Below, one piece after another: positions 1,614 to 46,668 of a stretch of DNA of 64,000 bases (the first letter of the stretch is position 1; every line of letters begins with the position of its first letter). The translations under genes were made by a program, and so were the position numbers. This stretch comes from Amphritea atlantica (GTDB lineage: Bacteria; Pseudomonadota; Gammaproteobacteria; Pseudomonadales; Balneatricaceae). The notes under the pieces are model-generated. The model did no database searches. It had not been told where the DNA came from and saw nothing but the letters and a program-made list of their open reading frames with translations. The DNA lies in NCBI GenBank assembly GCA_024397875.1, contig CP073344.1, positions 2,905,001-2,969,000 on the forward strand. Reading direction: 5' to 3'.

Positions 1614-1642
1614 TTTACAGCGGGGTAACAAATCAATAGTAT
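1614..1642 (+). promoter_or_regulatory. Sigma-70 promoter of tRNA-Tyr
   Basis: TTTACA at 1614-1619 and TAGTAT at 1637-1642 are separated by exactly 17 bp and followed by a GC-rich discriminator (ACGCGCTCC). This is typical of stable-RNA promoters under stringent control. Transcription would start near 1649, just before the mature tRNA 5' end at 1656. Because the first terminator downstream is broken by an insertion element, this promoter may also feed the transposase gene at 1853. Confidence 0.7.
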
Positions 1643-1655
1643 ACGCGCTCCTTGT

Positions 1656-1739
1656 GGTGGGGTTCCCGAGTGGCCAAAGGGATCAGACTGTAAATCTGAC
1701 GCGCGAGCTTCGGTGGTTCGAATCCACCCCCCACCACCA
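1656..1739 (+). tRNA. tRNA-Tyr (anticodon GTA)
   Basis: The 84 nt cloverleaf begins GGTGGGG and ends CCCCACC-A-CCA, with the CCA encoded. The anticodon GTA is at 1690-1692 within CAGACTGTAAATCTG. The long variable arm expected of bacterial tRNA-Tyr is present, and the T arm is GGTGG-TTCGAAT-CCACC. The last 19 nt (1721-1739) reappear three more times downstream at 3220, 3400 and 3580 as the first part of a 180 bp tandem repeat. Confidence 0.97.
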
Positions 1740-1757
1740 TCGAATTCGATACGAAAC

Positions 1758-1780
1758 AGCCTCGTTTACCAACGGGGCTT
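1758..1780 (+). terminator. tRNA-Tyr terminator stem, T-run removed by IS insertion
   Basis: The stem AGCCTCGTT / AACGGGGCT is intact, but only two T remain before the IS begins at 1781. In the intact units the same stem is followed by six T. Termination of the tRNA transcript here is therefore probably weakened. Confidence 0.7.
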
Positions 1781-1852
1781 AATGAGATGGTTCCCCTCGC
1801 TTTTAACCAGCTATGCTGGAAAGGCGACGAAACCAACAAGGAGAACCATCTC

Positions 1853-2869
1853 ATGTCTATCAAAGTCCTTGGAATCGATTTAGGCAAGTCTTCTTTTCAT
1901 TTAATTGGTCGTGATTCTCACGATAAGCAAGTCTGCAAAAAGAAACTCTCTCGTCATCAGCTCATTACTTTTATAGCACAACTACCGCCATGCATTATTG
2001 CGTTTGAAGCATGCGGTGGCGCGCACTGGTTAGGCCGTCTCTGCATGAGTTATGGTCACGACGTCCGATTAATCCCGCCTCAATATGTTAAACCTTTTGT
2101 TAAAGGTAATAAAAACGACTTCATTGATGCGCAAGCGATTACTGAGGCGGCAGGTCGTCCGGATATGCGGTTTGTCGCAGTGAAGTCAGTTGACGCACAA
2201 AGTCAGGTAGTCGTACATCGAGTACGTGAAGGCTTCGTAGCGGAGCGCACAGCTTGTATGTCACGTATTGGCGCGCTGTTATTGGAATTCGGTTTATCCC
2301 TTCCACGTGGTCACTCAGCGATGAAAAAGCTGTTTTCATGGCTAAGCACACAAAAAGTTACACTATGCCCAGCCATCATAGGTGAGCTTCAAGTGATGCA
2401 TGATCACTACCGCTACTTAAATGAGCAAATAGCCGAACAAGATATAAAAATCGTTAGGCAGGTTAAGCAAAGCAGTCGTTGCCAGCTACTAAAAACCGTT
2501 CCTGGTATTGGTGATATGACTGCAAGCCAATTAGCAGCAGAAGTGGGCAATGCTCATCAGTTTAAAAGCGGTCGAGAAATGGCTGCTTGGTTAGGGTTGG
2601 TGCCGCGGCAATATTCGACAGGAGGGAGGTCGAAGTTATTAGGTATTAGTAAGCGTGGAAATAAACGCCTTAGATGCTTATTAGTGCACGGAGCCAGAGC
2701 GATCCTATCACGATTGGATAACTATCGGGGGCCGATGTATGACTGGCTAAGAAAGCTGAGAGCAAGTAAATCATTTAATACGGTCTGTATTGCTCTGGCA
2801 AACAAGCTGTCACGAATAGCGTATGCTGTTTTAAGCAAGAATGAGCCTTACCAGTCACAGCAGGTTTAA
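1853..2869 (+). CDS. IS110-family DEDD transposase, copy 1
   Basis: A 338-residue recombinase. The N-terminal DEDD RuvC-like domain is marked by VLGIDLGKSSFHLIG, AFEACGGAHWLGRL and KGNKNDFIDAQAI. The C-terminal Transposase_20 domain carries TVPGIGDMTASQLAAEVG and the serine-bearing segment YSTGGRSKLLGISKRGNKRLR. The reading frame stays open upstream to 1787, but the ATG at 1853 is chosen because AAGGAG precedes it at a suitable distance and the family starts just before the first catalytic Asp. The enzyme acts with an element-encoded guide RNA in this family. It may be transcribed from the tRNA-Tyr promoter. Full length, with no disabling change seen. Confidence 0.93.
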   Translation: MSIKVLGIDLGKSSFHLIGRDSHDKQVCKKKLSRHQLITFIAQLPPCIIAFEACGGAHWLGRLCMSYGHDVRLIPPQYVKPFVKGNKNDFIDAQAITEAAGRPDMRFVAVKSVDAQSQVVVHRVREGFVAERTACMSRIGALLLEFGLSLPRGHSAMKKLFSWLSTQKVTLCPAIIGELQVMHDHYRYLNEQIAEQDIKIVRQVKQSSRCQLLKTVPGIGDMTASQLAAEVGNAHQFKSGREMAAWLGLVPRQYSTGGRSKLLGISKRGNKRLRCLLVHGARAILSRLDNYRGPMYDWLRKLRASKSFNTVCIALANKLSRIAYAVLSKNEPYQSQQV

Positions 2870-3098
2870 TCAGGTTTGCAATAACAGAGCGTGATGATGA
2901 AAAGGGTTGACCGTCCGGGTAGTAAACCTGTCACAAAAAACAGCTGTTATAAGCTGTCGGTTTTTTAAGGGCTATCTGGCGCGGATGCTCATCGTGGAGC
3001 AGGAATGAAACATTCCTAATTAAAGACTCCGAATACATTAGCGCAAAACCACCTCATGATCACAAATCTGTGTTGCAATCATGAGGGGAACCATACAT
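2870..3098 (+). ncRNA. Candidate bridge RNA region of IS copy 1
   Basis: In IS1111-group elements the guide (bridge) RNA is encoded downstream of the transposase. This 229 bp right end has no ORF and holds several hairpins: ACAGCT/AGCTGT at about 2940-2957 followed by a T-run, AGGAATG/CATTCCT near 3000-3016, and CCTCATGAT/ATCATGAGG close to the end. The location follows from the family and the hairpins are visible. RNA boundaries and guide loops were not determined. Confidence 0.45.
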
Positions 3099-3219
3099 TT
3101 TTGTGTCTGAAATTTATGCGCAGGGGGGTGGGTGAGAACCACCGACGTGGTTCGAGCCGAAGTGAGCCCGCGAACGAAGACAACGTTGCGTGCTTTTCCG
3201 CAACGGCCCGAAGGGGAAT

Positions 3220-3238
3220 AATCCACCCCCCACCACCA
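3220..3238 (+). repeat. tRNA-Tyr 3'-end copy, unit 2
   Basis: Exact copy of the final 19 nt of the tRNA gene including CCA, without the rest of the cloverleaf. The preceding base differs (T instead of G), so homology to the tRNA stops exactly here. Confidence 0.9.
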
Positions 3239-3256
3239 TCGAATTCGATACGAAAC

Positions 3257-3283
3257 AGCCTCGTTTACCAACGGGGCTTTTTT
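3257..3283 (+). terminator. Intact Rho-independent terminator, unit 2
   Basis: Stem AGCCTCGTT / AACGGGGCT (one T-G wobble), four-base loop and six T. This is the ancestral form of the terminator that is interrupted in units 1 and 4. Confidence 0.85.
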
Positions 3284-3284
3284 G

Positions 3285-3399
3285 TGTCTGAAATTTATGC
3301 GCAGGGGGTGGGTGAGAACCGCCGACGTGGTTCGAGCCGAAGTGAGCCCGCGAACGAAGACAACGTTGCGTGCTTTTCCGCAACGGCCCAAAGGGGAAT
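3285..3399 (+). ncRNA. Structured spacer of the tRNA-Tyr repeat (rtT-like), unit 2
   Basis: The segment between terminator and next tRNA end can form GAACC(A/G)C-CGAC-GTGGTTC and CGTTGCG-loop-CGCAACG hairpins, with GTTCG/CGAAC enclosing the middle. Across units the stem changes keep pairing: A to G opposite T in units 3 and 4 of the first stem, and a re-paired GTGC/GCAC stem in the diverged unit 4. This suggests an RNA-level function resembling E. coli rtT RNA. Equivalent segments are 3104-3219, 3465-3579 and 4963-5090. Confidence 0.4.
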
Positions 3400-3418
3400 A
3401 ATCCACCCCCCACCACCA
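3400..3418 (+). repeat. tRNA-Tyr 3'-end copy, unit 3
   Basis: Second downstream copy of the 19 nt tRNA end, 180 bp after the copy at 3220. Confidence 0.9.
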
Positions 3419-3436
3419 TCGAATTTGATACGAAAC

Positions 3437-3463
3437 AGCCTCGTTTACTAACGGGGCTTTTTT
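3437..3463 (+). terminator. Intact Rho-independent terminator, unit 3
   Basis: Same stem as in unit 2, with a single C to T change in the loop and six T following. Confidence 0.85.
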
Positions 3464-3579
3464 GTGTCTGAAATTTATGCGCAGGGGGTGGGTGAGAACC
3501 ACCGACGTGGTTCGAGCCGAAGTGAGCCCGCGAACGAAGACAACGTTGCGTGCTTTTCCGCAACGGCCCGAAGGGGAAT

Positions 3580-3598
3580 AATCCACCCCCCACCACCA
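3580..3598 (+). repeat. tRNA-Tyr 3'-end copy, unit 4
   Basis: Third downstream copy of the 19 nt tRNA end. Its terminator stem (3617-3638) is cut from its T-run by IS copy 2 after 3639. Confidence 0.9.
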
Positions 3599-3711
3599 TC
3601 GAATTCGATACGAAACAGCCTCGTTTACCAACGGGGCTTAATGAGATGGTTCCCCTCGCTTTTAACCAGCTATGCTGGAAAGGCGACGAAACCAACAAGG
3701 AGAACCATCTC

Positions 3712-4728
3712 ATGTCTATCAAAGTCCTTGGAATCGATTTAGGCAAGTCTTCTTTTCATTTAATTGGTCGTGATTCTCACGATAAGCAAGTCTGCAAAAA
3801 GAAACTCTCTCGTCATCAGCTCATTACTTTTATAGCACAACTACCGCCATGCATTATTGCGTTTGAAGCATGCGGTGGCGCGCACTGGTTAGGCCGTCTC
3901 TGCATGAGTTATGGTCACGACGTCCGATTAATCCCGCCTCAATATGTTAAACCTTTTGTTAAAGGTAATAAAAACGACTTCATTGATGCGCAAGCGATTA
4001 CTGAGGCGGCAGGTCGTCCGGATATGCGGTTTGTCGCAGTGAAGTCAGTTGACGCACAAAGTCAGGTAGTCGTACATCGAGTACGTGAAGGCTTCGTAGC
4101 GGAGCGCACAGCTTGTATGTCACGTATTGGCGCGCTGTTATTGGAATTCGGTTTATCCCTTCCACGTGGTCACTCAGCGATGAAAAAGCTGTTTTCATGG
4201 CTAAGCACACAAAAAGTTACACTATGCCCAGCCATCATAGGTGAGCTTCAAGTGATGCATGATCACTACCGCTACTTAAATGAGCAAATAGCCGAACAAG
4301 ATATAAAAATCGTTAGGCAGGTTAAGCAAAGCAGTCGTTGCCAGCTACTAAAAACCGTTCCTGGTATTGGTGATATGACTGCAAGCCAATTAGCAGCAGA
4401 AGTGGGCAATGCTCATCAGTTTAAAAGCGGTCGAGAAATGGCTGCTTGGTTAGGGTTGGTGCCGCGGCAATATTCGACAGGAGGGAGGTCGAAGTTATTA
4501 GGTATTAGTAAGCGTGGAAATAAACGCCTTAGATGCTTATTAGTGCACGGAGCCAGAGCGATCCTATCACGATTGGATAACTATCGGGGGCCGATGTATG
4601 ACTGGCTAAGAAAGCTGAGAGCAAGTAAATCATTTAATACGGTCTGTATTGCTCTGGCAAACAAGCTGTCACGAATAGCGTATGCTGTTTTAAGCAAGAA
4701 TGAGCCTTACCAGTCACAGCAGGTTTAA
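3712..4728 (+). CDS. IS110-family DEDD transposase, copy 2
   Basis: 338 residues, identical in translation to the copy at 1853-2869, with the same AAGGAG ribosome site before the ATG. The open frame extends upstream to 3550 through the terminator and tRNA-end repeat, but that extension is repeat sequence and not protein-like. The DEDD N-terminal domain and the serine-containing Transposase_20 domain are both intact, so the enzyme is probably active. Confidence 0.93.
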   Translation: MSIKVLGIDLGKSSFHLIGRDSHDKQVCKKKLSRHQLITFIAQLPPCIIAFEACGGAHWLGRLCMSYGHDVRLIPPQYVKPFVKGNKNDFIDAQAITEAAGRPDMRFVAVKSVDAQSQVVVHRVREGFVAERTACMSRIGALLLEFGLSLPRGHSAMKKLFSWLSTQKVTLCPAIIGELQVMHDHYRYLNEQIAEQDIKIVRQVKQSSRCQLLKTVPGIGDMTASQLAAEVGNAHQFKSGREMAAWLGLVPRQYSTGGRSKLLGISKRGNKRLRCLLVHGARAILSRLDNYRGPMYDWLRKLRASKSFNTVCIALANKLSRIAYAVLSKNEPYQSQQV

Positions 4729-4957
4729 TCAGGTTTGCAATAACAGAGCGTGATGATGAAAAGGGTTGACCGTCCGGGTAGTAAACCTGTCACAAAAAAC
4801 AGCTGTTATAAGCTGTCGGTTTTTTAAGGGCTATCTGGCGCGGATGCTCATCGTGGAGCAGGAATGAAACATTCCTAATTAAAGACTCCGAATACATTAG
4901 CGCAAAACCACCTCATGATCACAAATCTGTGTTGCAATCATGAGGGGAACCATACAT
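4729..4957 (+). ncRNA. Candidate bridge RNA region of IS copy 2
   Basis: Same 229 bp hairpin-rich non-coding right end as in copy 1; see the entry at 2870. Position is inferred from IS1111-group organisation. Confidence 0.45.
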
Positions 4958-5190
4958 TTTTGTGTCTGAAATTTATGCGCAGGGGGTGGGTGAGGACCAC
5001 CGACGTGGTTCGAGTCGGAGTGAGCCCGCGAACGAAGACAATGCTGTGCGTGCTTTGCACAACGCTAATCTACCGCTTCGCTCAGTCCGCAGCAAAAACG
5101 CTACTTGCCAAACGCGACTTCGTTGCTTGCTCGCGGGCAGCTACCCAAGAAAACACAAGTCATACCGGCTTAACCTCTAGTCTCAGTTCT
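4958..5190 (+). other. Diverged end of the tRNA-Tyr repeat array
   Basis: To about 5090 this matches the repeat spacer with scattered changes, including a re-paired hairpin GTGC-loop-GCAC. From there to 5190 it no longer matches and no new tRNA end or gene is seen. A weak A-rich stretch and AACCGCC near 5195 precede the next gene. There is no ORF with protein character. Confidence 0.6.
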
Positions 5191-46502: not shown

Positions 46503-46668
46503 TCAGTTATCCTCATCTGTTCATTAATCATCGATAAGGTCATTCTGAATTATTATTAAATATAAACAATATCGTATTTATTTTACTCATTGTTCATTAT
46601 TATTTTACAATTAGCTTTTTACACTTACCTTTTTTCAAAAAGAGCTCTTCAGAAAGGCTTTAGCAACG

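Follow-up and report, generated by a model that had tools for sequence, protein, structure and literature searches.

A family of RtT trailer units with copies of the tails of tRNA and tmRNA genes, and an IS1111-type element at terminators, in Amphritea atlantica and other bacteria

Introduction

Behind tRNA-Tyr in the tyrT-tyrV operon of Escherichia coli lie tandem units of about 180 bp, known as RtT or rttR, each with a 19-nt copy of the tRNA tail. As far as the available passages of the literature go, the corresponding RNA, rtT, is mostly cited as a by-product of this one operon. The passages at hand of PMC4986893 derive RtT RNAs from numerous E. coli tRNA operons, tyrT among them, state an effect of RtT on the stringent response, and report two RtT RNAs of Actinobacillus pleuropneumoniae, Arrc20 and Arrc21, that were detected on northern blots. 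Arrc20 and Arrc21 resemble the units described below in being RtT by Rfam and in lying beside tRNA genes; they differ in their location upstream of tRNA-Asn and tRNA-Lys, and a match between unit tail and tRNA is not described in those passages. In similarly partial form, PMC2658671 records an rtT copy-number difference of 175 bp between two Salmonella strains, and an earlier RtT analysis (PMC7657543, PMC8250186) presents covariation and a tandem GA motif.

Here I describe an array of RtT units behind the tRNA-Tyr gene of Amphritea atlantica, in a stretch of 64,000 nucleotides (the window), together with its relatives in other genomes and an insertion sequence (IS) of the IS1111 type that interrupts it twice. 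The RtT family is a general trailer element of stable-RNA genes, and the window array is a member of it.

Results and Discussion

An RtT array behind tRNA-Tyr

The tRNA-Tyr(GTA) gene of the window (1656..1739, on the + strand like every feature below whose coordinates are joined by two dots; ARAGORN and Rfam) ends in the 19 nt AATCCACCCCCCACCACCA (1721-1739), which are tRNA positions 58-76 and form the tail repeated by each unit. Exact copies of AATCCACCCCCCACCACCA are found at 3220-3238, 3400-3418 and 3580-3598, and Tandem Repeats Finder (TRF) gives for 3098-3639 a period of 180 with 3.0 copies and 97% matches; the 180-bp tandem units restarting with the 19-nt end of the tRNA, on which the original prediction was built, are thus real. 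All three units score above the gathering score of Rfam RF00391 (45 bits): unit 1 at 3111..3238 with 58.6 bits (the remainder of this unit being 3098..3219), unit 2 at 3291..3418 with 48.8 bits and unit 3 at 3471..3598 with 56.9 bits, the latter two ending in the tail copies 3400-3418 and 3580-3598. The repeats are therefore not due to chance, and the proposed likeness to the E. coli tyrT design with its rtT RNA holds. A convergent origin, which had also been suggested, is rejected, since units that match the RtT covariance model are homologous to rtT.

A terminator hairpin, AGCCTCGTTTACCAACGGGGCT, follows tRNA-Tyr and every full unit, with one letter changed behind unit 2. The hairpins at the junctions of units 1 and 2 (3257..3278) and of units 2 and 3 (3437..3458) are intact. 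The hairpin of tRNA-Tyr (1758..1779) and that after unit 3 (3617..3638) have their T-tracts split by IS copies 1 and 2, respectively; that of tRNA-Tyr is not scored as a terminator. With the first and the last terminator each broken within the T-tract by an IS copy, only 3257-3278 and 3437-3458 score as intact, and the expectation of the same terminator after each tail copy is correct for the copies at 3220 and 3400 and fails for that at 3580. Behind the second IS copy lies a decayed unit 4 (4957..5070, right end approximate) that lacks a tail copy and whose stretch 4957-5046 is 94% identical to 3459-3548; this unit and the two IS1111-type elements had been overlooked. The original array hence comprised tRNA-Tyr, three full units and a partial one, a layout close to that of E. 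coli tyrT-tyrV; the order arm, P2 hairpin, core is shared as well. It differs from the E. coli array in having intrinsic terminators between the units and two IS interruptions, and from the description of that array in having sister arrays of Ser, Lys, Arg and Val tRNAs. Because 180 bp are 60 codons, long frames that repeat every 60 residues cross the array on both strands (3038-3746); they are probably not genes.

Long identical repeats can be misassembled, so an assembly artefact, or chance repetition, deserves mention. Both are practically negligible as explanations, given that the window units differ from one another by point changes and that units of this family are present at five A. atlantica loci and in numerous other genomes.

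RtT units behind ten kinds of RNA gene

The A. atlantica genome contains 13 RF00391 matches, 11 of them above the cut-off, at five loci: the window array, arrays behind tRNA-Ser(GGA), tRNA-Lys(TTT) and tRNA-Arg(CCG), and one with the tail of tRNA-Val(GAC). The Arg unit has the start of the tail only. Of 370 genomes sampled from the class, 65 have an RF00391 match and 26 one above the cut-off, both lower bounds as at most eight candidates per genome were scored; among 14 named control genomes it was detected only in E. coli. Altogether 143 Rfam matches were collected, including those of A. atlantica. For 115 of them a same-strand tRNA gene lies upstream within the examined stretch, and in 82 of these 115 the last 22 nt share at least 18 consecutive nt with the tRNA end.

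A second model, R1, was built from 37 aligned cores with the arm omitted and only AAT of the tail included, which avoids the bias of a tail-containing model. With at most 11 candidates scored in each of 397 genomes of the phylum, R1 matched 61 genomes at E up to 1e-4, including 24 from outside the class; 80 of 91 further listed places were added to the loci so obtained. Over 115 sources, six of them from outside the R1 search, R1 gave 161 matches, of which 127 lie behind a same-strand tRNA or transfer-messenger RNA (tmRNA) gene and 34 have no RNA gene upstream in the stretch examined. Half of the latter come from two genomes (10 from G536 and 7 from G635); these 17 resemble other repeat families and were excluded from the count of RtT units. 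Their loci (L194, L217, L224, L229, L230, L270, L274 and L292-L294) carry dispersed core-like repeats.

Taking one unit per genome and RNA gene, with the core at most 130 nt behind the gene, leaves a non-redundant set of 142 units from 92 genomes: 79 from R1 (two of them via E. coli and Amphritea loci fetched otherwise) and 63 from Rfam matches. The window Tyr array and the Val array of the same genome are outside this set because insertions put them too far from their genes. Cutting cores from the 143 Rfam matches discarded 41 (37 without the expected tail motif and four without a core start), plus two with N; since this filter favours good tails, the R1 part is also reported separately. By RNA gene, the set comprises Ser 60, Gln 30, Tyr 16, Lys 9, Arg 8, Asp 5, tmRNA 5, Glu 5, Pro 3 and Val 1, ten kinds overall; the searches were prefiltered, and these numbers reflect what was detected, not true frequency. 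The units behind tmRNA genes are those of loci L196, L200, L248, L259 and L288, and a displaced one is found in L311. Seventeen genomes outside the class, all of one family, contribute 37 of the 142 units. The notion that such arrays belong mainly to enterobacteria is contradicted by these 17 genomes and by the 65 matching genomes of the class.

In most units the tail copies that of the RNA gene in front of them. At least 18 of 19 tail letters are identical to positions 58-76 of the unit's own RNA in 92 of the 142 units, and in none of 2840 comparisons with other isotypes. For the R1 part, where no tail motif was required, the values are 42 of 79 and 0 of 1580; for the Rfam part, 50 of 63 and 0 of 1260. 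The full tail is thus kept in about half of the unfiltered units, and many others retain its first part. Over all units, identity is 0.90-0.96 in the T-stem portion of the tail versus 0.73-0.77 at positions 73-76, and in the R1 part 0.86-0.96 at T-stem positions 61-65 versus 0.65-0.66 at 73-76, so that conservation is higher in the paired part of the tail than at the CCA end. The rule that tail and RNA gene match is not stated in the passages of PMC2658671, PMC4986893, PMC4710047, PMC7657543, PMC8250186, PMC2965389, PMC12306157, PMC11623569 and PMC12584984 to which the comparison was confined; subscription literature (e.g. Bosl and Kersten 1991) was outside its scope, and priority is not claimed.

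In E. coli K-12, in addition to the four units at tyrT-tyrV, there are Rfam matches above the cut-off at proK (101 bits) and at lysT, lysW, lysY, lysZ and lysQ (47-60 bits), four of these five beginning inside the tRNA gene. R1 recovers proK and lysQ clearly, lysZ and lysT weakly, and lysW and lysY at E 0.02-0.04. The 18-nt tRNA-Lys tail has one exact copy behind each of the five lys genes, and the proK tail recurs behind proK. Among seven chosen regions, no match was found at proM/argX, the gln/met cluster or proL, and the ser/arg cluster gave only weak R1 matches. The K-12 record annotates only rttR in the examined regions, so that the lys and proK loci (L316, L319) are unannotated. These E. 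coli copies, the Ser, Lys, Arg and Val arrays of A. atlantica and the ten kinds of RNA gene lead to rejection of a feature specific to tRNA-Tyr: of the original suggestion of a conserved feature of tRNA-Tyr loci, recurrence and conservation stand and the restriction to tRNA-Tyr falls. A tail rule that extends over ten kinds of RNA gene, tmRNA included, and to one family outside the class makes RtT a general class of trailer element. It also yields predictions that can be tested, namely which RNA genes carry RtT, an obligatory pairing of arm and tail, and the reality of the unannotated proK and lys copies of E. coli K-12.

An arm antisense to the tail, and a core between the halves of the T-loop

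In a typical unit, an arm antisense to the T-stem and tail is followed by a short hairpin, GAACC...GGTTCGA, in which the 5' half of the T-arm recurs, then by a core built of small hairpins, and lastly by the copy of positions 58-76. In the predicted fold of unit 1 (z -2.8), P1 has 11 bp, its arm (3123-3133) pairing with the tail copy 3220-3238, and P2 has 7 bp; both RtT helices are thus present, and covariation in relatives is seen for P1 and P6. Like the tail, the arm is specific to the RNA gene. The best stretch antisense to the tail of the own RNA within 60 nt before the core scores 11.3, versus 7.0 for other isotypes; it exceeds the mean of the others in 134 of 142 units, and in 92 it is above every one of the 25 others sampled. 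For the R1 part the scores are 10.0 and 6.4, with 73 of 79 units above the mean of the others and 48 of 79 above all of them. With the arm placed by motif, which was possible for 120 of the 142 units, a fraction of 0.659 of the P1 cells is paired, versus 0.567 after shuffling (maximum of 300 shuffles, 0.597), and 28 of the 120 units have nine pairs out of nine. Changes on both sides of arm/tail pairs include GACTGGGAT/ATCCTAGTC, CGCCAGGAT/ATCCTGGCG, GTGTAGGAT/ATCCTGCAC and CAAGGGGAT/ATCCCCTTG. Among the 393 cells of well-paired P1, G-T occurs 27 times and A-C nine times, an excess expected of an RNA made from the strand of the tRNA.

Within the core, P6 shows compensatory changes (C-G in 19 and G-C in 15 of 37 at one pair), P5 hardly varies, and RNAalifold, run on the MAFFT alignment, did not return P3 or P4. 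The core has nearly invariant ends, GGTTCGA and AAT, each of them one half of the T-loop, and the unit therefore reads as a T-arm opened at the T-loop: to judge from the sequence, it looks like a T-arm into which the core is set and which is clamped by its own antisense copy. TruB recognises GUUC, according to the accessible passages of PMC11623569, so that the invariant GGUUCGA could be modified. How one core gains three different RNA-specific flanks is the evolutionary question that this architecture raises.

Arrays displaced from their RNA genes

The Val-tail array of A. atlantica has four units at 1308 kb, and tRNA-Val(GAC) itself lies 11 kb upstream. An integrative element of about 11 kb with integrase and resolvase genes (L312 8762-19775; 1297.2-1308.2 kb of the genome) separates the two, its phage-type integrase gene lying directly behind the tRNA. 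For 18 chosen RtT places without a nearby RNA gene, about 4-20 kb of upstream sequence were taken, and in four of them a fitting RNA gene was found about 9-12 kb upstream: the Val array, Ser arrays in G233 and G434, and a tmRNA array in G471. Exact tails are present at both places in the Val and the two Ser cases; in G471 only a tmRNA-like tail remnant remains before the unit. An integrase gene accompanies three of the four, and none was seen in G434 among open reading frames of at least 250 aa. In G434 an RtT core (L305 24-113), 9.8 kb from tRNA-Ser, has its upstream arm replaced exactly at GGTTCGA.

Positions 58-76 of tRNA genes are a usual attachment region of integrases. For integrases recombining at the 3' ends of tRNAs, tail copies could on that ground be spare sites of integration or scars left behind, and the insertions of about 9-12 kb between RNA gene and RtT in four of the 18 places, three with an integrase gene, agree with such a view. 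At two of the four junctions, in A. atlantica and in G233 (Ser), the island lies between an intact RNA gene and RtT, which means that RtT did not keep the island off the end of the gene; moreover, a conserved core of several hairpins is unexpected of scars. I consider this explanation very improbable.

Proposed expression, decay and spread

The reading I favour, which comparison of sequences makes probable, is that RtT is a structured RNA expressed as a 3' trailer of tRNA and tmRNA transcripts and amplified through recombination between tail copies. RNA polymerase would read through the terminator of the tRNA or tmRNA gene, P1 would close each unit around its tail copy, and processing would free the unit as a small RNA, as reported for rtT of E. 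coli; recombination between the directly repeated tails would make arrays grow and shrink. The 3' external transcribed spacer (3'ETS) of leuZ, a small-RNA sponge made from a tRNA 3' trailer, is comparable in its origin and is not known to have a tail copy or an RtT core.

Several observations weigh against this reading. For 22 of the 142 units the P1 test lacked an anchor. Support for P3 is weak (65 of 142 cores versus 23 of 95 in the shuffled control), and G-T shows no clear excess over A-C in P3 (4 and 3) or P6 (2 and 1), where the numbers are too few. The advantage of the arm for its own tail is small (6.16 versus 5.57, in 85 of 125 units). Of 41 units with a tail that differs from the RNA at positions 59-66, 22 have an arm that fits the RNA better, eight one that fits the tail better and 11 one that fits both equally, so that tails seem to decay rather than to co-evolve with the arm; the idea that within units the arm changes in compensation for a diverged tail was accordingly rejected on these counts of a crude 8-mer score test. 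Of the 18 places examined for displacement, 14 have no explaining RNA gene in the roughly 4-20 kb taken upstream. In Amphritea sp. 1_MG-2023 (G370), RtT matches lie behind tRNA-Ser (three above the cut-off) and tRNA-Lys (two below it); at its orthologous tRNA-Tyr locus, with the same neighbours, the terminator is present and RtT is undetectable. As far as the passages at hand tell, an E. coli strain without RtT after loss is on record (PMC12584984), and rtT-like sequences occur in elements of the BIME type upstream of protein genes (PMC2965389). The G370 locus and the RtT-less strain together indicate that the array is dispensable.

The better fit of the arm to the RNA in 22 of the 41 units with a tail differing from it also bears on another explanation, in which a unit would regulate its own tRNA or tmRNA as an antisense RNA whose arm pairs in trans with the T-arm of that RNA or its precursor. 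Exact antisense stretches to the own tRNA reach 20 nt (in 2 of 87 units). The longest exact antisense match averages 9.8 nt, however, the same arm pairs inside the unit in the fold of unit 1, and mature T-arms are folded and stable; antisense regulation thus appears quite improbable.

Alternatively, RtT might be a selfish mobile DNA repeat that settles behind RNA genes, with a conserved core and with ends copied from the host gene on insertion, and with no need of a cellular function. Closely similar cores do occur behind different RNA genes of A. atlantica (Ser, Lys and Val arrays). Core similarity is 0.743 between isotypes within a genome (60 pairs) and 0.701 between genomes for the same isotype (2549 pairs), the within-genome value being the higher in 54 of 73 units, a comparison confounded by relatedness and gene conversion. 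The presence of RtT at tRNA-Tyr in A. atlantica and its apparent absence in G370, and the coincidence of the element boundaries with the T-loop, would also suit a mobile repeat. On the other hand, no enzyme and no clean pair of empty and filled sites was found, and the compensatory pairs and the excess of G-T over A-C in P1 point to selection on an RNA. One window unit had no blastn match in phage or plasmid collections, and an origin from phages or plasmids was rejected. I regard a selfish repeat as unlikely. Much the same doubt attaches to a further possibility, that RtT is a self-propagating family residing in the T-loop-to-CCA end of stable-RNA genes, including tmRNA, whose core is fixed and whose antisense arm, half T-arm and tail are rewritten for each host by an undescribed form of copying or recombination. 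A trailer RNA remains the more probable account.

An IS1111-type element in the terminators

The two insertions in the array (copy 1, 1781..3097; copy 2, 3640..4956) are identical elements of about 1.3 kb. Each encodes a DEDD transposase of 338 aa (1853..2869 in copy 1, where the list of open reading frames starts the same frame at 1787; 3712..4728 in copy 2) with the domains DEDD_Tnp_IS110 (PF01548) and Transposase_20 (PF02371), and is bounded by 12-bp subterminal inverted repeats, ATGGTTCCCCTC / GAGGGGAACCAT (1787-1798 and 3083-3094 in copy 1). Both features agree with the IS1111 family, in which transposases have 330-350 aa and the repeats 7-17 bp. The non-coding region downstream of the transposase gene (2870-3097) contains letters that match both flanks of the target and make up the proposed guide part of a seekRNA or bridge RNA, predicted at 2932..2966 as CACAAAAAA, a hairpin and CGGTTTTTT: CACAAAAAA is the complement of TTTTTTGTG on the right flank, and CGGTTTTTT resembles the left flank. 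The element is thus like the IS1111 systems of PMC11187229 and PMC11208160, as described in their available passages, in its transposase, its subterminal repeats, its long downstream non-coding region and its guide-like letters matching both target flanks. It is unlike them in its target, the T-tract of intrinsic terminators. In those passages the word terminator is used in PMC11187229 only for plasmid constructs and is absent from PMC11208160, and a terminator-targeting IS1111 element was not met with in the passages of these two papers or of PMC9208149; no ISfinder check was made.

The A. atlantica genome holds ten identical copies (L001-L010). All are followed by at least five T, the right flank being TTTTTGTG in six, and nine lie directly behind a hairpin of -11 kcal/mol or lower that ends in GGTTTA, GGCTTA or GCTTTA; in front of the tenth (L008) such a hairpin is missing. 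Nine of the ten are thus located behind a terminator-like site and oriented in its direction. Of 47 relatives of the element, 27 were examined (loci within L131-L168); the left end could be read in 25, and 21 of these are preceded by a hairpin of -6 or lower, versus 109 of 500 random stretches, all from one region of the A. atlantica genome. The second guide of relatives (e.g. GGGCTTTTT, GGGTTTTTT, GTCGTTTTT) matches the left flank in 12 of the 14 with a readable guide, as I read them, the exceptions being L134 and L135. Many of the relatives likewise sit in T-tracts after terminator-like hairpins, and their presumed guide letters vary with the hairpin edge of the target.

The element is one of a group in which the presumed guide RNA corresponds to the T-tract edge of intrinsic terminators. 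Its two positions in the array are plain; it was probably guided there to the T-tracts. As it interrupts the T-tract, the promoter of the tRNA may now run into the transposase gene, and insertion at terminator sites may generally feed transposase expression. The element suggests a way in which a guide RNA could aim an insertion sequence at terminators, where it lands downstream of transcribed genes and in the same direction.

Two minor features of the window may be added. A promoter-like site before tRNA-Tyr (1614..1642) comes from a consensus scan only and has no evidence of function, the scan of the region having returned two sites where 5.7 were expected from shuffles. At 46603-46638 there is a short tandem repeat of 14 bp in 2.6 copies.

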